64,000 bases of DNA, taken from Cytophagales bacterium. GTDB taxonomy: Bacteria > Bacteroidota > Bacteroidia > Cytophagales > 172606-1. The notes beneath the pieces are model-generated. The model made no database searches. It had not been told where the DNA came from and saw nothing but the letters and a program-made list of their open reading frames with translations. Made by a program: the position numbers and the translations under genes. Location: NCBI GenBank assembly GCA_030446715.1, contig JAUJMU010000001.1, forward strand, positions 1 through 64,000, read 5' to 3'. This document shows, one piece after another, positions 2,423-61,622 of this stretch (its first letter is position 1; each line of letters opens with the position of its first letter).

Positions 2423-3193
2423 TTATCTTCCCATCCACCCGCCGTCTACGGTGAGAATGGTGCCGCTCACGTAGTCCGAGGCGCGGGAGGCCAGAAAAAC
2501 CGCAGCGCCTTTAAAATCGTCCGGTTCGCCCCAGCGGCCCGCCGGAATCCGCGACAGAATGGACTTGCTACGTTCCGGGTCATTGCGCAGGGCCTCTGTG
2601 TTGTCGGTGCTGATGTAGCCGGGAGCAATGGCGTTGACCTGCACGCCCTTGCCGGCCCATTCGTTGGCCAGTGCTTTGGTGAGGGAGCCGATGGCGCCCT
2701 TGCTGGCCGCGTAACCCGGCACCGTAATGCCGCCCTGAAAAGTGAGCAGGGAAGCGGTGAAAATGATTTTGCCGCCCCCCCGGACAACCATATCCCTGCC
2801 AAACTCGCGGCTGATGATGAACTGCGAATTGATGTTGACTTCCATGACTTCGTCCCAGTATTCGTCAGGATGTTCGGCGGCCGGTTTCCGGAGGATGGTG
2901 CCGGCATTGTTTATTAAAATATCTACCGGCGGACATTCCCGTTTTACCTGCTCAATGAACCCGTAGAGGCCCGGCCGGTCCGAAAAATTGCACTGGTACC
3001 CCCGGAAACTCCGGCCAGTGGCCCGTACCGCCTGTTCGACGGCACTGCCCGAAAGCTCCAGCGAAGCCGATACGCCGATGATGTCGGCACCGGCTTCGGC
3101 AAGGCCAATGGCCATTGCCTTGCCGATGCCCCGCTTGCAGCCGGTGACCAAAGCGGTTTTGCCCTTCAGGCTGAATTGTTCAGGTATGTGCAT
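2423..3193 (-). CDS. kduD: SDR oxidoreductase, KduD-like (2-deoxy-D-gluconate 3-dehydrogenase)
   Basis: A 256-residue short-chain dehydrogenase. Seen: NAD-binding TGCKRGIG at residues 17-24, NNAG near 95, a catalytic Ser (FTASLL) and YAASK motif near 145-162, and the C-terminal GRWGEPDDFKG...DGGWMGR pattern typical of KduD. KduD reduces or oxidises 2,5-diketo-3-deoxygluconate/2-deoxygluconate in uronate catabolism. It lies downstream of, and in the same direction as, a truncated zinc alcohol dehydrogenase, with a type F1 repeat filling the gap. The start ATG at 3193 sits inside the repeat's AACCATG phrase. The facing IclR gene is a plausible regulator. Other SDR sugar dehydrogenases cannot be excluded. 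Confidence 0.85.
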   Translation of the reverse strand: MHIPEQFSLKGKTALVTGCKRGIGKAMAIGLAEAGADIIGVSASLELSGSAVEQAVRATGRSFRGYQCNFSDRPGLYGFIEQVKRECPPVDILINNAGTILRKPAAEHPDEYWDEVMEVNINSQFIISREFGRDMVVRGGGKIIFTASLLTFQGGITVPGYAASKGAIGSLTKALANEWAGKGVQVNAIAPGYISTDNTEALRNDPERSKSILSRIPAGRWGEPDDFKGAAVFLASRASDYVSGTILTVDGGWMGR

Positions 3194-3275
3194 GGTTGGA
3201 TGTTTATATGGTTATATGGCTGCATTGCTCAATTGTTTAATTGCTGCATTGTCAGAGCAGCCATTCAATAGCTTC
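3191..3275 (-). repeat. intergenic phrase-repeat hairpin F1, copy 1 (shortened)
   Basis: On the plus strand the segment reads as iterated phrases (GGATGTTTATATGG, TTATATGGC, TGCATTGC, TCAATTGTTTAATTG, CTGCATTG), followed by a short opposite arm (AGCAGCCATTCAATAGC). It occupies the whole gap between the alcohol dehydrogenase stop (3274) and the kduD start (3193). The kduD start codon lies in the final AACCATG phrase. The opposite arm is much shorter than in the other three copies. Confidence 0.7.
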
Positions 3276-20446: not shown

Positions 20447-20999
20447 CAGTGGCAGTTTGCTTGAGCGGGAAGACGCCGGTAGGCTTCCGGATGCTGTACC
20501 GGCTGAAGTCCTGGGCAGCATCCAGACCTTCGCCCTTCAGGATTTCGTCGTCAGTCGTGATGGTTACAAACTTCTCCGTGTAAATGGTCTTGGTATCGGG
20601 CTTCCAGTTCAGTTCTTCAGTATTGAGCGTTTCGCCTTTTTCGATGTTGTTGACGACCACGTTGCCGGTTACGTTGTAAATATTGTTGGCGTACCGGACA
20701 CCCTTGTTGGCTTTCAGAGTGGTGGTTTTCGCGCCTTTATCGTCAAAAAATTCAACGTAGACGCCTTTCGGGAAGTAACGGTCTCCGTTGGCCTTCTCCG
20801 TCTGCAAGGGTGCTTTCAGGTGAATTTTGAGCCGGGCCGAATCACTGAAGATCATTTCGAGGTCGTGTACTTCTGATAGCGGGCCTTTGTATTCGGGTAT
20901 CTGCCTGATCCCTTTTTCATCACCGCAACCGGTCAGCAGCATCAGCCCGGCCAATACCGTCACAGCCGAAAGCACCCGGAACCTGATTGTTTGCCACAT
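20433..20999 (-). CDS. lptC: LPS export ABC transporter periplasmic protein LptC
   Basis: A 188-residue lipoprotein with signal peptide and lipobox (LAGLMLLTGCGDEKG). The body has the LptC/OstA-type repeated beta-strands: DARLKIHLKAPL-like segments, YFPKGVYVEFFDDKGAKTTT, TLKANKGVRYANNIYNVTGN and VVVNNIEKGETLNTEELNW. LptC relays lipopolysaccharide from the LptBFG complex to LptA across the periplasm. It is followed by overlapping genes. Upstream, a 124-bp gap with an F2 repeat separates it from the barrel protein. Confidence 0.92.
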   Translation of the reverse strand: MWQTIRFRVLSAVTVLAGLMLLTGCGDEKGIRQIPEYKGPLSEVHDLEMIFSDSARLKIHLKAPLQTEKANGDRYFPKGVYVEFFDDKGAKTTTLKANKGVRYANNIYNVTGNVVVNNIEKGETLNTEELNWKPDTKTIYTEKFVTITTDDEILKGEGLDAAQDFSRYSIRKPTGVFPLKQTATDEAN

Positions 21000-21002
21000 A
21001 CC

Positions 21003-21110
21003 TTGAAAAATTATAAATTTTAGATTTTGAATTTTGAATTGAAAAAGTTAAAGCATGAATACCATCTGCTCAATCCAAAATTCATAATCCATCATTTAAA
21101 ATCTTGTTCT
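21003..21110. repeat. intergenic phrase repeat F2, copy a
   Basis: AT-rich facing arms: TAAATTTTAGATTTTGAATT then TTGAATTG on one side (21013-21041), and CAATCCAAAATTCATAATCC then ATCATTTAAAATCTTG on the other (21071-21106). The arms consist of iterated ATTTTGAAT phrases. The element lies between the barrel protein stop and the lptC start, both on the minus strand. Confidence 0.6.
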
Positions 21111-21123
21111 ACGAACAACCCGG

Positions 21124-22440
21124 TCAGTCAATTTTTGGTTTCAGGAACCAGCCAAAATCATTGATGGTAAAGCCAAACACCACGTTTATGTAACGTTCAC
21201 GGATCAGATTGCTCTCCAGGGTGCCGCGCTGTCCTATGGCAAGAGAAAGGTTCATGTACGAAACGCTGCGCCGGTCGGCGGGAGTAATGGGCAGGAATAC
21301 GCCACCCCGCAGGCTCACATCGCTTAATTGTTTACCTCCACCCGGCACCGAGAATGGCATCTGGGAGTAGTTGAGGCCAAACCGGTAAGTAGCCCTTTTG
21401 AAATAACTGTCAATTGACCGCCAGTCGGGGGTCCACTCGCCGCCCACGCCTAAGGTAAAGGTGTTCCGCAGAGCGCCGAGCTGGTTGTCGGCCTGCAGAT
21501 CAGAAAAACGGCGGAACGTCACATCGGCGGCCAAAGCCCAATGCAGGGGCTCTTCGAGGCTGACGCCAAGTTGGTAACCGCCCGGCAGCCTGGTTGTAGC
21601 GGACACGGTATCCAGCGGTACCAGCTCAATATATTCTCCGTCGGACTGGCCGCGGTACTGGATGGACGAAAACTGCTTGCCCTTCAGGTCGCGCGAGATG
21701 TCGTAGGTAGCACCTACGTTCCAGTATACCCGGTCGTTGAGCCGGTGGCGGTACACCACCCCCGGCTTGAACACAAGGTCAGACTGGTTGGTGCGGCGTA
21801 CGGATGCCACATTGTAACCAATCAATGAATCGGCAAACACCTGCGAAACGGCTTCCTTCGTAATGGAGCCGAACACAAAGCTGGTTTGCAGGCCAATGGC
21901 CAGATCCTGAATAAGCCGTTCCTGACCGTCTTCTTTCCGGAACACGGTCACGCCATTGGTGAAGCTGACCGCATTGAGTCCCCCCAGGCCACGGTAAGTA
22001 TACAGAGCCGGGGTAGTGCTCCCGATCACGGTGCCTCTGGTAGTACTCTCGTACTGATGCGCACTGTAAGGTGCCAGATTGACGCCCAGCGTCCAGCGGC
22101 GGCTGGCCGGAAAAGCAAGGGCAAGGTAGTTGAGGTTCAGGTTGAAGTCGCGCTGCTGAGCCTGGCCGGTTCTGAGCTGTTTCAGTCCGCCGGCAAAACC
22201 GACATCAAAGGCAGTGCTCCGGTTGCGGACCAGCAGGGCCGGATTGACATTGTTGATGAAGATACCGTTGGCATAGGCAGCACCCACGCTGCCAATGGCT
22301 ACGTTGGGAGCAAAGCCGGGGTAAACAAGTTCGCCAATACCGATCTGAGAATAGGGGGAGTTGCCGACACGTTGCGCAAATCCTGTCTGAACAGCCAGAC
22401 AGCAAAGCAGCATGACGGCAATCCTAAGTGAGTGAAACAT
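21124..22440 (-). CDS. outer-membrane beta-barrel protein (FadL/OmpP1-like, uncharacterised)
   Basis: A 438-residue protein with a signal peptide (MFHSLRIAVMLLCCLAVQTG, cleavage after FA-QR). The N-terminal RVGNSPYSQIGIGELVYPGF and the repeated amphipathic strands up to a terminal aromatic-containing strand (NVVFGFTINDFGWFLKPKID) indicate a large barrel. Its place between coaX and lptC is conserved in Bacteroidota. The start overlaps the coaX stop by 17 bp. Substrate unknown; similarity to fatty-acid or hydrophobic-compound transporters is by general architecture only. Confidence 0.82.
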   Translation of the reverse strand: MFHSLRIAVMLLCCLAVQTGFAQRVGNSPYSQIGIGELVYPGFAPNVAIGSVGAAYANGIFINNVNPALLVRNRSTAFDVGFAGGLKQLRTGQAQQRDFNLNLNYLALAFPASRRWTLGVNLAPYSAHQYESTTRGTVIGSTTPALYTYRGLGGLNAVSFTNGVTVFRKEDGQERLIQDLAIGLQTSFVFGSITKEAVSQVFADSLIGYNVASVRRTNQSDLVFKPGVVYRHRLNDRVYWNVGATYDISRDLKGKQFSSIQYRGQSDGEYIELVPLDTVSATTRLPGGYQLGVSLEEPLHWALAADVTFRRFSDLQADNQLGALRNTFTLGVGGEWTPDWRSIDSYFKRATYRFGLNYSQMPFSVPGGGKQLSDVSLRGGVFLPITPADRRSVSYMNLSLAIGQRGTLESNLIRERYINVVFGFTINDFGWFLKPKID

Positions 22441-23158
22441 TATGTAGTAAGATACGATTCAAGCCGATTAACACCAGTTCCGGCACCGCAAAGATGATGC
22501 CTTTTAATTGAGATTCAAAGAAATGCGCATCGCCGCCGCAGAGAATAGTGGTCAGGGGAAAAAACCGGGACCCGTACCGGGCCATCATGCCTTCTATTTC
22601 TCCCAGCAGGCCATTGACTACTCCGCTCTGCATGGCCGCACGGGTGGTTTTGCCGATGATTGCTGCACCAGCCTCCGGTTCAATTAACGGCAAACGTGCC
22701 GTAAACGTATGCATGGCCCGGAATCGCATGTGCAATCCCGGCGAAATAGCCCCGCCGTGGTAATTGCCGCCGGCATCCAGGAGGTCGTAGGTGATGCAGG
22801 TGCCAAGGTCAATCACGAGGCAGTGCTTACCCGGATACCGGGCGGCGGCTCCTGCTACGGCGGCCAGCCGGTCCATGCCCAGCGTCTGTGGCGATTCGTA
22901 CAGGTTGGCAACGGGTACGGGCAGGCGGTAATCCAGCACATAAACGGAAGAAATCACGGGCAGCAGCTGAGTCCGGAGTGCCGCCGCGTCGCCGCTTACC
23001 GAGCAGATGATCACGTGCCGGGGCCGCACCTCCTCTACCAGGGCCGGCAGTCCGGCAACCTCCACTCTCCGGGCTGGCTTTACCAGCATCTCTCCCTCAA
23101 AAATGCCCACCTTGGCGGCCGTATTGCCCAGATCAATGGCAATATTGTATGGTTGCAT
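22424..23158 (-). CDS. coaX: type III pantothenate kinase
   Basis: Catalyses ATP-dependent phosphorylation of pantothenate, the first step of coenzyme A synthesis. 244 residues. Seen: the N-terminal acetokinase-fold phosphate loop IAIDLGNTAAKVGIFEGE, the LGMDRLAAVAGA segment, CLVIDLGTCITYDLLDAGGN and GGAISPGLHMRFRAMHTFTA, all CoaX signatures. The ATG and first codons (MQPY) are read from the terminal AACCATGCAACCATAC phrase of an F1 repeat that fills the upstream gap. First gene of the coaX-OMP-lptC string. Confidence 0.95.
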   Translation of the reverse strand: MQPYNIAIDLGNTAAKVGIFEGEMLVKPARRVEVAGLPALVEEVRPRHVIICSVSGDAAALRTQLLPVISSVYVLDYRLPVPVANLYESPQTLGMDRLAAVAGAAARYPGKHCLVIDLGTCITYDLLDAGGNYHGGAISPGLHMRFRAMHTFTARLPLIEPEAGAAIIGKTTRAAMQSGVVNGLLGEIEGMMARYGSRFFPLTTILCGGDAHFFESQLKGIIFAVPELVLIGLNRILLHNVSLT

Positions 23159-23338
23159 GGTTACATTGCTGAATTGTTGCGCTGTTCAATTGTTGCATTG
23201 CTACATTGTTTAATTGCCTGATTGTTGGACGGCTATATGGTCATATGGTTGTATGGCCGGCATGATCCTTACAGAAGCAGACAATCTGACAATGCAGCAA
23301 TGCAACAGTTTAGCAATTTAACCATACAACCATTCAAC
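23150..23338 (-). repeat. intergenic phrase-repeat hairpin F1, copy 2 (core-containing)
   Basis: Fills the entire gap between the coiled-coil protein stop (23334) and the coaX start (23158). Read in the direction of transcription, a TTG-rich arm (GTTGAATGGTTGTATGG, TTAAATTGC, GTTGCATTGC) is followed by a core, then by a CAA-rich arm (CCATACAACC, CAATTAAACAATGTAGC, AATGCAACAATTG). The core CAGATTGTCTGCTTCTG-N-AAGGATCATGCCGGC (23256-23288) recurs in copy 4. The arms can fold into a long imperfect stem. Confidence 0.75.
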
Positions 23339-23891
23339 TCATCAGCAAGCCGTAAAGGATGATCAGTACCACGCCGGCCACCAGCACGGCAAGGCCGATG
23401 AGCCAGTAGTTGACCGCGGGTGCTTCCGGTACGGGGGCAGAACGTTCTGAAGGGTTACGTTCGGGCAGCGAAAGGCTCAGTTTGGTTTCCAGCGCCTGTT
23501 TGCTCTGTTCGAGTGAATAGATAATGTTGTTCTGTTCGCGGCTTCGTTCGATCAGTTGAGTGAGCTGGGTATCTTTGGCAGCCAGTTGCCGGTCCTTCTC
23601 GGCCAGCTGCGTCTCCAGCAGGGCAATCAGCGTAGATTTATCGGGACCGCCGGGGGCAGGAGCAGACATCGGTTCAGGCTCGGGGGCGGCCGGGGCAACT
23701 TGCGCGACGGCAGCTTTCGGTACCACGCCAAGGTGCTTGTTCATAAAATCAAGCCTGATCCGGAACAGCCCGTCCTCAAAGCGGACGTACTTGCTGCTGC
23801 GGTGCTCCTCGCAGAAACGGCTGATTTCGCGTACGGAATGCCCCGACAGCCGGGCGGCCTTTTTTACGGAAACAAACTGCTTATCTGCCAT
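23334..23891 (-). CDS. tail-anchored coiled-coil protein with N-terminal helix-turn-helix-like segment
   Basis: A protein of about 185 residues from the ATG at 23891 (MADKQFVSVKKAARLSGHSV); an upstream ATG at 23924 is possible. Seen: an N-terminal MerR/excisionase-like segment (SVKKAARLSGHSVREISRFC), a proline/alanine linker, a coiled coil (LLETQLAEKDRQLAAKDTQL onward) and one C-terminal membrane helix (WLIGLAVLVAGVVLIILYGL). This layout suggests a membrane-tethered DNA- or protein-binding factor. No specific family recognised. It precedes coaX on the same strand. Confidence 0.72.
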   Translation of the reverse strand: MADKQFVSVKKAARLSGHSVREISRFCEEHRSSKYVRFEDGLFRIRLDFMNKHLGVVPKAAVAQVAPAAPEPEPMSAPAPGGPDKSTLIALLETQLAEKDRQLAAKDTQLTQLIERSREQNNIIYSLEQSKQALETKLSLSLPERNPSERSAPVPEAPAVNYWLIGLAVLVAGVVLIILYGLLMS

Positions 23892-24018
23892 TGGCCGGGA
23901 GTCGTTTAGGGGAAAGATGCGCAAAATTGTTGGTTAGGGGCAAATAAAATAATAGTTTTAAGATTGATCTTTCTGACCCGGCGATCTTTTCCACTCATAA
24001 ACCTTTCGGGTATTGCGC

Positions 24019-32814: not shown

Positions 32815-32844
32815 GACTTTGTGCTTTGATGCTTCATATTGTAA

Positions 32845-32938
32845 GTCTGAATCAGGATTTTCGGGATTAAAGAATTAAGGGATTATCAGATTTCCCTTGT
32901 CCTGCTCATCCCTTAATCCTGTGAATCCTGATCTGGAC
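32845..32938. repeat. intergenic phrase repeat F5 (AATCAGGATT / GGATTAAGGGAT)
   Basis: Left arm AATCAGGATTTTCGGGATTA with AAGGGAT (32850-32884) and right arm ATCCCTTAATCCTGTGAATC then CTGATCT (32908-32934) are imperfect reverse complements built from GGATTA/AAGGGAT phrases. It sits between convergent genes, just ahead of the intrinsic terminator. Confidence 0.55.
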
Positions 32939-32967
32939 TTCCCACACCACGAAACACCCGGAAAAGC

Positions 32968-33003
32968 AAAACCCGCCGGCGAAATTGTTCACCGGCGGGT
33001 TTT
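32968..33003. terminator. strong bidirectional intrinsic terminator
   Basis: AAAACCCGCCGG (32968-32979) pairs perfectly with CCGGCGGGTTTT (32992-33003), with a T-run on both strands. It lies between the stops of the antiporter (plus) and the DUF1573 gene (minus), so it can serve both. Confidence 0.88.
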
Positions 33004-33025
33004 CTGAAGGAATGAGTGTATTGAG

Positions 33026-39739: not shown

Positions 39740-39842
39740 AGATTGAAGGAGTGAAGGATTGAATGGAGCAGAATAATGGACAGCAGGCATAACGTTCGCA
39801 GAAAAGGCAATTCAGTAATTCAATCCTTCAGTCCTTCAATCT
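39740..39842. repeat. intergenic hairpin F3 (GATTGAAGGAGTGAAGGATTG)
   Basis: AGATTGAAGGAGTGAAGGAT plus TGAAT (39740-39764) and its reverse complement at 39818-39842 match at 24 of 25 positions, with a 53-nt loop. Each arm is itself an iterated ATTGAAGGA phrase. It lies between queD and lpxB; the right arm overlaps the queD stop codon and the left arm starts one base from the lpxB start codon. Confidence 0.8.
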
Positions 39843-53894: not shown

Positions 53895-56024
53895 TTATGC
53901 CCCGTTGCTGATGAGTTTTTCCAGAATTTCCTGCGCGGCGGCGGCAATGACGGTACCCGGTCCGTAGATGCCGGTTACGCCGGCTTCTTTCAGGAAGGGA
54001 TAATCCTGCGGCGGGATCACCCCGCCGACAATCACCATAATATCTTCCCGCCCGATTTTGTGCAGTTCTCCGATCAGCTGGGGCACCAGCGTCTTGTGGC
54101 CTGCCGCCAGGCTGGATACACCGACTATGTGCACATCGTTCTCGGCGGCCTGCCGGGCTACTTCTTCCGGGGTCTGGAACAACGGACCAATATCCACATC
54201 AAAGCCGAGGTCGGCAAAACTGGTGGCAATCACCTTGGCGCCCCGGTCATGACCATCCTGTCCCATCTTGGCAACCATAATGCGGGGCCGCCTGCCTTCC
54301 AGCGCGGCAAACTGATCAGCCATTCCAAGGGCCCGTTTGAAGTTTTCCTCGTCAGAAATCTCTCCCGCGTATACGCCGGATACCGCCCGGATGGTTGCCC
54401 GGTGACGGCCAAATACACTTTCCATGGCTTCGGAAATTTCGCCCAGAGTGGCCCGGTGGCGTGCCGCATCCACGGCCAGCGCCAGCAGATTACCTTTTCC
54501 GGTTTCGGCGCAGCGGGTAATGGCCCGTAAAGCTTCCTGCACGGCTTCCGCATTACGGTCTGCTTTTATTTTTTGCAGGCGCGCAATCTGGGTATTGCGT
54601 ACCGCCGTATTGTCTACCTCCAGCAGTTCGATGTCCGTTTTCTCGGCTACCCGGTATTTGTTTACGCCCACGATTACATCTTTACCTGAATCAATGCGGG
54701 CTTGCTTGCGGGCGGCGGCTTCCTCAATCCGCAGTTTGGGTAGTCCGGTTTCAATGGCTCTGGCCATTCCGCCCAGTTCTTCCACTTCCTCAATCAGGCT
54801 CCACGCCTTGTGCGCCAGTTGGTGGGTAAGGGTTTCCAGGTAGTAAGAGCCTCCCCAGGGGTCTACGGTGCGGGTCACATCTGTTTCGGCCGCAATGATC
54901 AGCTGTGTATTGCGGGCAATGCGGGCCGAAAAGTCGGTGGGCAGGGCAATGGCTTCGTCGAGGGCGTTGGTGTGCAGCGATTGGGTGCCGCCCAGCACCG
55001 CGGCAAGTGCCTCTACGCAGGTGCGGGTCACGTTGTTGAAGGGGTCCTGTTCGGTGAGGCTCCAGCCGGAAGTCTGGCAGTGGGTACGCAGGGCAAGGGA
55101 TTTGGCACTTTCAGGATTAAAACCCTGCACAATTTTAGCCCAAAGCATCCGGCCAGCCCGCATTTTGGCAATTTCCATGAAGTGGTTCATGCCGGTTGCC
55201 CAGAAGAAGGAGAGCCGCGGCGCAAAGTCATCAATGGCAATGCCCGCCTTCAGCCCGGTGCGGAGGTACTCCAGGCCGTCGGCCAGCGTGTAGGCCAGTT
55301 CCAGGTCCGCCGTGGCGCCAGCTTCGTGCATGTGGTAGCCGCTGATGGAAATGGAATTGAACTTAGGCATGTGCCGCGAAGTGTAGGCGAAAATGTCGGC
55401 GATGATGCGCATGCTGGGCTCAGGCGGGTAGATGTACGTGTTGCGCACCATAAACTCCTTCAGGATGTCATTCTGAATGGTGCCGCTTAATTGCTCCGGT
55501 TTTACGCCCTGCTCTTCGGCGGCTACCATGTAAAAGGCCATCACCGGAATCACGGCTCCGTTCATGGTCATGGACACCGACATCTGGTCCAGTGGAATGC
55601 CCCCGAACAGAATCTTCATGTCTTCCACTGAGTCAATGGCCACCCCGGCCTTGCCTACGTCGCCTACCACGCGGGGGTGGTCAGAGTCGTAGCCGCGGTG
55701 GGTGGGCAGGTCAAAGGCCACGGAAAGGCCCTTTTGCCCGGCAGCAAGGTTGCGGCGGTAGAAGGCATTAGACTGTTCGGCAGTGGAAAAGCCCGCATAT
55801 TGCCGGATGGTCCAGGGCTGCTGCACATACATGGAGGCATAGGGGCCGCGCAGGAAAGGCGGCATGCCGGCACCGAAGCCGGGGTGTTCCAGGTTTTGCG
55901 TGTCGCCGGCAGTGTATAGTGGTTTTACCGGTATTCCTTCGGCGGGAGTCCATTCTGAACCCGGAAGGGTTGCGAAACTTTCCCGGTTTGGTGAGAACGC
56001 TATTTTAGAAAAGTCGGGTTTCAT
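53895..56024 (-). CDS. mutB: methylmalonyl-CoA mutase large (alpha) subunit
   Basis: 709 residues. Interconverts methylmalonyl-CoA and succinyl-CoA with adenosylcobalamin. Seen: [100 protein letters not shown], and a C-terminal B12-binding domain with the His loop [20 protein letters not shown] near residue 590. Length is normal. It follows mutA on the same strand, with an F1 repeat filling 220 bp between them. Confidence 0.97.
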
Positions 56025-56049
56025 ACAGGCAGCGGTTAGTGATCAGCAG

Positions 56050-56246
56050 TGTTGACAAGGAAGGTTATGGCTGTATGGTTATATGGCTGCATTGTTGCAT
56101 TGTTAAATTGTTGTCAGGCTGAACGGTCATTTTCCGGACCTCCAGCAATTCAACAGTTAAACAATTGGGCAATTGAACAACTCAGCCATTCAGCCATATA
56201 ATATGATCATCATTTGGGTATTAATGGCTGTGTGATTGAATGGTTA
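56050..56246 (-). repeat. intergenic phrase-repeat hairpin F1, copy 3
   Basis: Occupies the mutA-mutB gap and reaches the mutA stop codon (56244-56246). TTATGGCTGTATGGTTATAT, GGCTGCATTGTTGCATTG and TTAAATTGTTGTCAG (56064-56116) face CAATTCAACAGTTAAACAAT, TGGGCAATTGAACAACTCAG and CCATTCAGCCATATAA (56156-56201). The core (GGCTGAACGGTCATTTTCCG) differs from copies 2 and 4. Confidence 0.7.
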
Positions 56247-57542
56247 CAAATCTGATAACGGCTCGAACAGATTCTCAGGTACACTTTCTCCTTCCGCCGG
56301 CTGGTATTTGTTGATGCCGACCAGCACCTGTTTCCCCTGCCGGATGGCATTTTCCCTTTCGGTCCGCACTTTTGCAATTTCCTCCTGCACAAAGCCGCTC
56401 CGCCGCGCGGCCCGGTAGCCGCCATGGGCTTCTACCGTCTGGAACATTTTCCAGGCTTCCTGAGCAAGGGAGTAAGTCAGGCTTTCAAGGAAATACGTCC
56501 CGGCCGCCGGATCGGCTACCTTAGCCAGGTAGCTTTCTTCGCGTAAGATGGCGTGTACATTGCGGGCAATGCGCCGGGACTGGGTATCCGTTTCGCCGTA
56601 GCGGCTGTTGTAGGGCTCAACCGTAAGCGAGTCGCAGCCGCCCAGTACCGCAGCCATGCCCTCCAGCGTACACCTGAGCATGTTGTTATAGGCATCCTGC
56701 CGGAATTTATTCCAGCGGGCCGTCCGGACGTGCAGGCGAAAGTTGCTATGCTGTGCCTGATACGCCCCGGCCAGCTGGCCCACCAGCAGTCTCAATGCCC
56801 GCAGTTTGGCAATCTGAAGGAAAAAGCCGGTGTCTGCTGACAACCAGAGTTCAGTTGCCTTTAAAATGCTTCCGGCGGTTAGTCCCCGGTCGGTCAGCCC
56901 GTCCAGGCAATCAGTCAGTGCGGCCAGCGAAAAGGCCAGTTCCTGGGTCGCCGAAGCGCCGGCGTTGTGGTAATCGTGACCATTGATGACCAGCCGCGGG
57001 GGGACTGAGGCGTTCATGGCGGCGGCTACCGCATCAGCAAGGGCAATATCCGGCGCATCTCCGCCCGGCCAGTGCACGCCAAGCGTGGCCTGCCCTGCCG
57101 CGTCACCGCTCCGCTGCAAATCTTCCAGCAATGTTCCGCTGACGAGCAACTGTACCAGGTTCTGATCAGCCGGCAGTCCGGCCAGCAGCGTACGCCACGC
57201 AACTGAAGATTTATGGGTCAGATCAAAAAATATTTCGTCGGTTCCCGGGGCAAGTGACTCACGGGCCGTTTCGTTGGCGGCAGTCTCCTCGCGGACAGCG
57301 ATTTCGATCCGGCTGCGCCAGCCCGCCTGTTGCCTGAGCGGATGCGCAGGGATGTGGTGGATGTTCTCCCGGGTAAAGAATGGGGGCACAGTAATGCCCT
57401 CAGGCGTGAGCCAGTGCAATTTCTGGTTGAAGACCGCTTCCTTTTCCGCATCCGTGGCGGCTTTTATCTCTCTGAAAATCTGCTGCTTCCAGGCATCTGG
57501 GGTAACCGGGGAGAAGCTGGAAAATAAGGCTTCGTGGTTCAT
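56244..57542 (-). CDS. mutA: methylmalonyl-CoA mutase small (beta) subunit
   Basis: 432 residues with the mutase TIM-barrel (LQRSGDAAGQATLGVHWPGG, GASATQELAFSLAALTDCLD, FRLHVRTARWNKFRQDAYNN, GCDSLTVEPYNSRYGETDTQ, ANPAAGTYF-like VADPAAGTYFLESLTYSL). It lacks the C-terminal B12-binding domain, as expected for the non-catalytic subunit of the heterodimer. Ends with KYQPAEGESVPENLFEPLSD. It is divergent from dnaA across about 175 bp. The F1 repeat begins at its stop codon. Confidence 0.94.
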   Translation of the reverse strand: MNHEALFSSFSPVTPDAWKQQIFREIKAATDAEKEAVFNQKLHWLTPEGITVPPFFTRENIHHIPAHPLRQQAGWRSRIEIAVREETAANETARESLAPGTDEIFFDLTHKSSVAWRTLLAGLPADQNLVQLLVSGTLLEDLQRSGDAAGQATLGVHWPGGDAPDIALADAVAAAMNASVPPRLVINGHDYHNAGASATQELAFSLAALTDCLDGLTDRGLTAGSILKATELWLSADTGFFLQIAKLRALRLLVGQLAGAYQAQHSNFRLHVRTARWNKFRQDAYNNMLRCTLEGMAAVLGGCDSLTVEPYNSRYGETDTQSRRIARNVHAILREESYLAKVADPAAGTYFLESLTYSLAQEAWKMFQTVEAHGGYRAARRSGFVQEEIAKVRTERENAIRQGKQVLVGINKYQPAEGESVPENLFEPLSDL

Positions 57543-60790: not shown

Positions 60791-60900
60791 AATAAAAATT
60801 GTGGTTACTTAATCCCCTTTTCACCGTAAGAGGGCTTGGTCCGGGTTACCCGGATGCTATTTTTACATCAACAGTAAATTTTAAAATCAGAAATAAACCT

Positions 60901-61485
60901 ATGAAAAGATTCGGTTTGATTGCCATTGTAGCAATAGCACTTGTACTGCTGATGGGCGGTTGTGGCACTTACAATAATCTCGTCGGTAAGGAAGAAAACG
61001 TCCGCAATGCCTGGAGCCAGGTGGAAGCGCAGTACCAGCGCCGCGCCGATCTGATTCCTAATCTGGTGAATACAGTGAAGGGAGCAGCTAATTTTGAAAG
61101 GGAAACCCTTACAGAAGTGATCAATGCCCGGGCCCGGGCTACGTCCATAAACGTTGACCCTGCCAATCTGTCTCCTGAGCAGATCCAGCAGTTTCAGCAG
61201 GCCCAGCAAGGGCTGAGTTCGGCACTGGGTCGTTTACTGGCTGTGGCAGAAGCATATCCGCAGCTGAGGGCCACGGAAAGCTTCCGGGATTTGCAGGCCC
61301 AGCTGGAAGGGACCGAAAACCGGATCACGGTAGCCCGTAACCGGTATAACGACGCCGTAAATACCTACAATGTCGGCCGCCGTACTTTTCCGGCCAATAT
61401 ATTCGCAGGCATGTTTGGCTTTGGCGACAAAGGTTACTTTACCGCTCAGCCGGGCTCTGACCGGACACCAACGGTGCAGTTTTAA
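60901..61485 (+). CDS. LemA family protein
   Basis: 194 residues from the ATG at 60901. A hydrophobic N-terminus (LIAIVAIALVLLMGGCGTYN) is either a signal anchor or a lipoprotein signal (Cys in LMGGC). The LemA helical domain follows: NLVGKEENVRNAWSQVEAQY, QRRADLIPNLVNTVKGAANF, SSALGRLLAVAEAYPQLRAT, ESFRDLQAQLEGTENRITVA and RNRYNDAVNTYNVGRRTFPA. First gene of the lemA-TPM-TPM cluster common in Bacteroidota. The stop is followed directly by an F1 repeat. Confidence 0.94.
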   Translation: MKRFGLIAIVAIALVLLMGGCGTYNNLVGKEENVRNAWSQVEAQYQRRADLIPNLVNTVKGAANFERETLTEVINARARATSINVDPANLSPEQIQQFQQAQQGLSSALGRLLAVAEAYPQLRATESFRDLQAQLEGTENRITVARNRYNDAVNTYNVGRRTFPANIFAGMFGFGDKGYFTAQPGSDRTPTVQF

Positions 61486-61622
61486 ATGGCTGGATGGTTG
61501 AATTGCTTGATTGTTGCATTGTCAGATTGTCTGCTTCTGAAAGGATCATGCCGGCCATATAGCCATATAACAATTTAAACAATGCAACAATTTGATCATC
61601 CAGCCCCATAACCGTTCAACCC
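61484..61622 (+). repeat. intergenic phrase-repeat hairpin F1, copy 4 (core-containing)
   Basis: Starts at the lemA stop codon and ends 20 bp before the next gene. The 5' arm has GGCTGGATGGTTGAATTGC and TTGATTGTTGCATTGTCAG. The core (CAGATTGTCTGCTTCTG, one base, AAGGATCATGCCGGC) spans 61523-61555. The 3' arm has CATATAGCCATATAACAATT, TAAACAATGCAACAATTTGA and TCATCCAGCCCC. The 44-nt block at 61516-61559 matches copy 2 (23252-23295, opposite strand) with one mismatch, and both face the same way relative to transcription. Confidence 0.75.

Follow-up and report, generated by a model that had tools for sequence, protein, structure and literature searches.

The window (the whole stretch of 64,000 nucleotides analysed here) carries four copies of a family of intergenic repeats, F1. 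The four segments had been picked out by a sequence-only reading of the window; they are real, and all lie in gaps between co-directional genes. Copy 1 (3192..3255) is a single arm of eight octamers (ATGGTTGG ... ATTGTCAG) with no facing array, and runs up to the start codon of the gene at 2423-3193 (-). Copy 2 (23149..23333), with arms of +4/+9 and -7 octamers, occupies the gap between genes 22424-23158 (-) and 23334-23924 (-); its core, of type A, is at 23250..23277 (CTTCTGTAAGGATCATGCCGGCCATACA on the - strand) and is followed by the facing CAAT/CCAT arm of seven octamers at 23278..23333. Copy 3 (56067..56197; +6 and -7 octamers) sits between genes 53895-56024 (-) and 56244-57542 (-), with a type B core at 56108..56143 (GGAGGTCCGGAAAATGACCGTTCAGCCTGACAACAA on the - strand). 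Copy 4 (61486..61610) starts at the stop codon of gene 60799-61485 (+) and comprises six + octamers, a type A core at 61534..61562 on the + strand (CTTCTGAAAGGATCATGCCGGCCATATAG) and a facing arm that is partly out of register. Whole elements and single arms are given no strand.

The arms had been described as phrases of 8-11 nt: the iteration is evident, but the phrases are in fact octamers of exact period 8. Facing arms, ascribed to all four copies, are present in copies 2, 3 and 4, which fold strongly relative to dinucleotide shuffles (z scores of -7.1, -3.4 and -3.8, respectively), whereas copy 1 has a left arm only and folds no better than its shuffles (z -0.8). Copies 2 and 4 do share a core, GCATTGTCAGATTGTCTGCTTCTG[T/A]AAGGATCATGCCGGCCATA, with one mismatch and in the same orientation relative to transcription; the core of copy 3 differs from it. 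No Rfam family was found in the 64-kb window at gathering thresholds, which leaves F1 without a known RNA family.

A pattern scan of the source genome (6.43 Mb in 25 contigs) defines the arms as iterated octamers of the form ATKGYYNN. Four consecutive units match at 148 places genome-wide, compared with none for the reversed pattern, and there are no such matches in third-order Markov copies of 464 kb. Further copies of F1 are plentiful: a 189-nt query returned 45 matching places in the genome, and ~75 elements are present within the 1.61 Mb read, a sample enriched for F1 except along contig C18. At a looser threshold there are 78 candidates, at least one of which is a false call inside a gene. 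Given some 75 more elements and zero matches for both the Markov copies and the reversed pattern, chance is excluded as the origin of the arrays. The total for the genome is roughly 75 to 100 elements.

F1 elements are ~60-200 bp in length and have no coding content. Two-armed copies have the ATKG arm first and a CMAT arm facing it; single-arm copies, of which copy 1 is one, also occur. The lexicon of the arms is small (GAATTG, ATATGG, GCATTG, GAATGG, AAATTG, GTATGG and a few others make up most units) and linkage within words is strong (mutual information of 0.44 bits, compared with at most 0.07 when shuffled): words are therefore inherited as blocks.

The arms are separated by a conserved core, which is of at least three types: type A (CTTCTGAAGGATCATGCCGGTCAGACAG) is represented by 27 copies, type B (GGAGGCCCGGGAAATGACCGTTCAGCCTGACAACAA) by 21 and type C by three, with the other 27 candidates left unassigned. 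All three types recur at unrelated loci. The shared orientation of copies 2 and 4 does not extend to the family, since both orientations relative to transcription are found (11 vs 11 for core A, 3 vs 11 for core B). A recurring motif, TACTGACAAGGAAGG, is located outside some core B and core C elements, for example at 56040-56066 of the window, and is often preceded by TTAGC(A/G)GTTAGC phrases; it is also present in a palindrome at the 167.7 kb site of G001, a genome of the same genus.

It had been supposed that pairing is kept within each copy as its arms change. The match of a left arm to the right arm of its own copy (score 16.3) is, however, no better than to the right arms of other copies (16.8), and neither core A nor core B yielded a covarying consensus structure; on these grounds arm-specific compensatory evolution is rejected. 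Because arms match across copies as well as within them, the F1 hairpin is a property of a shared grammar and not of arm-by-arm compensation. Growth of the arms by phrase duplication, the other process envisaged at the outset, is not supported in the source genome, where identical neighbouring words occur at 0.027, compared with 0.030 in within-arm shuffles; pure octamer expansions are seen in a sister species, G002. The motif GTACTGACAAGG, considered as a terminal repeat, marks a minority of F1 ends only. A replication-strand bias, suspected in genome G139, received no clear support from regional GC skew; in the source genome a comparison of the longer arm with the GC skew gave 43 vs 26 (of 69).

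Gene context, which is based on a simple ORF caller, places the 75 F1 gaps in three classes: 51 co-directional, 20 convergent and four divergent. The divergent class is about five times smaller than expected (P = 2.7e-4), and convergent gaps are filled end to end. Within co-directional gaps the stop codon is the nearer neighbour: its median distance from the element is 15 nt, compared with 42 nt for the following start (P = 6e-4). The placement of F1 is thus non-random with respect to gene orientation, as the four copies in the window had led the sequence-only reading to expect. A T-run follows the distal arm in only 7 of 74 stems; F1 elements are therefore not canonical intrinsic terminators. 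A role in mRNA processing, raised in the same reading, is possible; the proximity to stop codons may be mere tolerance.

F1 is not alone. Along contig C18 (644 kb) strong facing arms were found in 79 of 450 gaps, compared with none in shuffles. Only eight of the 79 are F1 and one is a masked N-run; others are of period 7 and consist of other phrases. Some are located within the window, where phrase palindromes occur at 20943-21123 (a different dialect of period 7, AAATTATAAATTTTAGATTTTGAATTTTGAA facing CAATCCAAAATTCATAATCC), 32815-33025 (AATCAGGATTTTCGGGATTAAAG facing AATCCTGTGAATCCTGAT) and 39740-39835 (TGAAGGAGTGAAGGATTGAAT; period 8). F1 belongs, as one ‘dialect’, to a broader class of palindromes made of iterated phrases, which inhabit the intergenic gaps of Bacteroidota, chiefly just 3′ of stop codons.

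In the sister species, four-unit octamer matches number zero in G001 and 189 in G002, where the elements have a core of their own and arms that consist solely of (TTGAATTG)n, with as many as 18 units in one arm. At five F1 sites with alignable flanks F1 is absent from the sisters (G001 only at the 167.7 kb site). Palindromes of other phrases occur in G001 at three of the five: CGCAAAG at the 157.9 kb site, a GGATGGGTTATGAT-type palindrome at the 161.8 kb site, and nested GGGAGTT and CGCAAAG palindromes at the 167.7 kb site. In both sisters the gap that corresponds to 61.5 kb of the window contains an unrelated simple hairpin. Thus a hairpin recurs at a site while its sequence is replaced, although five sites are few. 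Replacement of one dialect by another at orthologous gaps suggests that what persists is a stem just after the stop codon, with wholesale change of its sequence; through such swaps, the long-standing question of whether palindromes between genes serve a function or are selfish becomes directly testable.

More widely, the octamer grammar has a very patchy distribution: it was detected in 23 of the order's 241 genomes and in 27 of 395 genomes of the phylum, a few of the phylum matches being plain single-phrase tandem repeats. Many of the matches outside the source genome are facing pairs with different, lineage-specific cores. Three genomes from one genus of the same order (G026, G041 and G081) match the reversed control pattern, with up to 30 matches, which is perhaps another dialect or a minisatellite. 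A different repeat, located at G000:C23:151174-151393, has dozens of near-identical copies in G001.

Phrase palindromes also house genes. PF05635, the 23S rRNA intervening-sequence protein (IVP) family (‘four helix bundle’), is present in 298 of the 395 Bacteroidota genomes sampled (75%); we know of no established function for these genes. In five genomes of one family, from the same phylum but outside the source class, F1-type octamer arms spaced about 415-440 bp apart enclose a PF05635 ORF. The source genome has seven PF05635 matches, most of which lie between facing arms of other phrases (e.g., GTTATTCGTTACTCGTTATTGG, AAGTGGTAAGTGGCAAGTG). None of the seven is inside F1 octamers, so the link between F1 and IVPs rests on the class and on other genomes.

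Flank complementarity scores of at least 15 were obtained at 41 of 53 PF05635 loci and at 1 of 30 same-locus control ORFs (P = 2e-12), with median scores of 19 at the 53 loci and 10 for other ORFs there. The best arm period was 7 in 34 of the 40 PF05635 arm pairs tested. A comparison of own with cross-locus arms gave a permutation maximum above the own mean; the flanks still held coding sequence, which muddied this test, and the same-locus ORF control was relied on instead. At the level of genomes, all 23 octamer-positive members of the order have PF05635, compared with 167 of 241 overall (P = 2e-4, phylogeny not controlled); the phylum-wide association is weak (25 of 27 octamer-positive genomes; P = 0.04, phylogeny again not controlled). 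Because PF05635 is common in the phylum, co-occurrence of this kind is weak evidence. One IVP of the source genome weakly matches the bAvd model (E = 2e-5); the solved structure nearest to it is 2gsc. An orthologous PF05635 gene is found in both the source genome and G002 in a gap that reads as leuC-leuD: the protein is well conserved and the phrase arms around it have turned over. Neither F1 nor the nesting of PF05635 in phrase palindromes is described in the open-access papers searched. The nesting of these genes in palindromes of 7-8 nt phrases provides a testable substrate and a first concrete lead on function.

We give an even chance to the view that F1 elements are dispersed, non-coding (and in that sense non-autonomous) stem-loop repeats, similar to intervening sequences (IVSs), that are tolerated or used at the 3′ ends of mRNAs. 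The octamer grammar, the copied lineage-specific cores, the absence from sister sites, the proximity to stop codons, the avoidance of divergent gaps and the nesting of PF05635 are observed; mobility and a role in RNA are what we infer from them. The elements would spread as DNA copies. Their arms would be rebuilt from a limited set of inherited words when copies exchange sequence or the template switches from one copy to another, and not by compensatory mutations in paired arms. Once transcribed, any left arm could pair with any right arm, and each copy would yield a long but imperfect RNA duplex of low GC content at the 3′ end of an mRNA or between cistrons. ORF-less IVSs exist in rRNA, and by analogy with these the F1 stem might be met by RNase III or exonucleases, and might keep neighbouring messages apart or protect them. 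F1 could be tolerated or used by the host because only ‘a stem here’, whatever its sequence, would matter. Where the loop houses a PF05635 ORF, the copy would be the ORF-bearing form of the same class.

It is somewhat unlikely that F1 is instead a purely selfish repeat, similar to a MITE or REP and moved by some transposase, with no RNA function and a 3′ placement that reflects insertion tolerance. Such a repeat would be expected to leave lineage-specific cores at many loci and to be absent from sisters; purifying selection would deplete it from divergent gaps, and the orientation of its cores need not be tied to transcription, all of which accords with F1. The copies nonetheless bear no target-site duplication (51 of 62 share no flanking word of at least 4 nt, and there is no excess over random positions) and no GTAG/CGTC tag (GTAG is near an end in 4 of 62 two-armed copies, CGTC in 0 of 62). 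Nor is there an adjoining Y1 transposase: neither of the genome's two Y1_Tnp genes has an F1 array beside it, and one of these loci (L094) has a single two-unit match. A selfish repeat also sits poorly with the use of a single octamer grammar with unrelated cores across many families of the phylum, and with the other palindromes at orthologous gaps in a sister.

The proposal that F1 elements are bidirectional terminators or 3′-end stabilisers, with the stem under selection and the phrases a mutational by-product of hairpin slippage, we consider quite unlikely. T-runs follow just 7 of 74 stems, some elements fold no better than shuffles, and conserved cores together with a shared lexicon would be superfluous for a terminator, even though the median distances (15 nt to the stop codon vs 42 nt to the next start), the end-to-end filling of convergent gaps and the unrelated simple hairpin in both sisters at the 61.5 kb gap are as this proposal predicts. 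Highly improbable is the idea that the arms serve as 8-bp binding sites, arrayed in opposite orientations, for a protein that binds DNA or RNA, with pairing incidental: it would account for arms that do not co-vary within a copy, for the restricted vocabulary with its within-word linkage (0.44 bits vs at most 0.07 shuffled) and for single-arm copies, but the arms of the two-armed copies that were read point towards each other, and the recurrence of this layout, in entirely different phrases, around PF05635 genes fits pairing better than a single binding specificity.

A further reading that we regard as unlikely is that Avd-like PF05635 four-helix-bundle proteins recognise phrase-iterated stems and promote their spread or remodelling, with F1-type copies as non-coding dependants in one phylum-wide class of element. 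If true, these abundant and unexplained proteins would be responsible for much of the hairpin content of intergenic DNA in Bacteroidota.

Several known systems share features with F1. REPs and BIMEs are likewise high-copy intergenic palindromes near gene 3′ ends; a REP/BIME with RAYT is rejected, since F1 has neither the GTAG/CGTC tag nor a linked Y1 transposase and its arms are longer and of period 8. The sequence-only reading was in this respect correct to regard F1 as more structured than a REP, and also to distinguish it from a MITE, given that target-site duplications are lacking. Dispersed copies with conserved cores are a MITE-like trait of F1; the arms are poorly conserved, and no mobilising enzyme was identified for the family. 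In diversity-generating retroelements (DGRs) a DNA hairpin lies beside a system with a PF05635-related accessory protein, Avd (PMC3240598), but the DGR stem is 8 bp, and neither a reverse transcriptase nor a template repeat is implied for F1 or the PF05635 nests. The TAACTGA repeats of Beggiatoaceae are also short, iterated intergenic phrases near genes; these are direct repeats of one heptamer, mainly upstream of start codons, whereas the arms of F1 face each other (PMC4679880).

Two systems come closer. The P6b stem of the group I intron in Nostoc trnL (tRNA-Leu UAA) is formed of iterated, degenerate 7-nt motifs (TDNGATT or NNTGAGT); its arms are complementary, its length changes by whole repeats and its motif classes have been replaced between lineages (PMC4476775). 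F1 and its relatives similarly consist of iterated, degenerate short motifs in arms that are complementary as a class (period 8 in F1 and 7 around PF05635). However, P6b occupies one intron site, whereas the F1 class occupies up to ~100 intergenic sites per genome, mostly with 8-nt units, and has several dialects per genome as well as conserved cores. The IVSs of 23S rRNA have terminal inverted repeats and an ORF in the loop, are cleaved by RNase III and are inserted into the loops of existing helices (PMC4990558). The likeness may extend to the terminal inverted-repeat stem, to insertion at a pre-existing stem-loop and, for the ORF-bearing form, to a loop that contains a PF05635 ORF, which F1-type arms enclose in five other genomes but no F1 copy encloses in the source genome; the differences are that F1 and the PF05635 nests lie between protein genes rather than in a 23S rRNA helix, and that their stems are composed of iterated 7-8-nt phrases. 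F1 would work like the Nostoc P6b stem and like an IVS, but is a member of neither.
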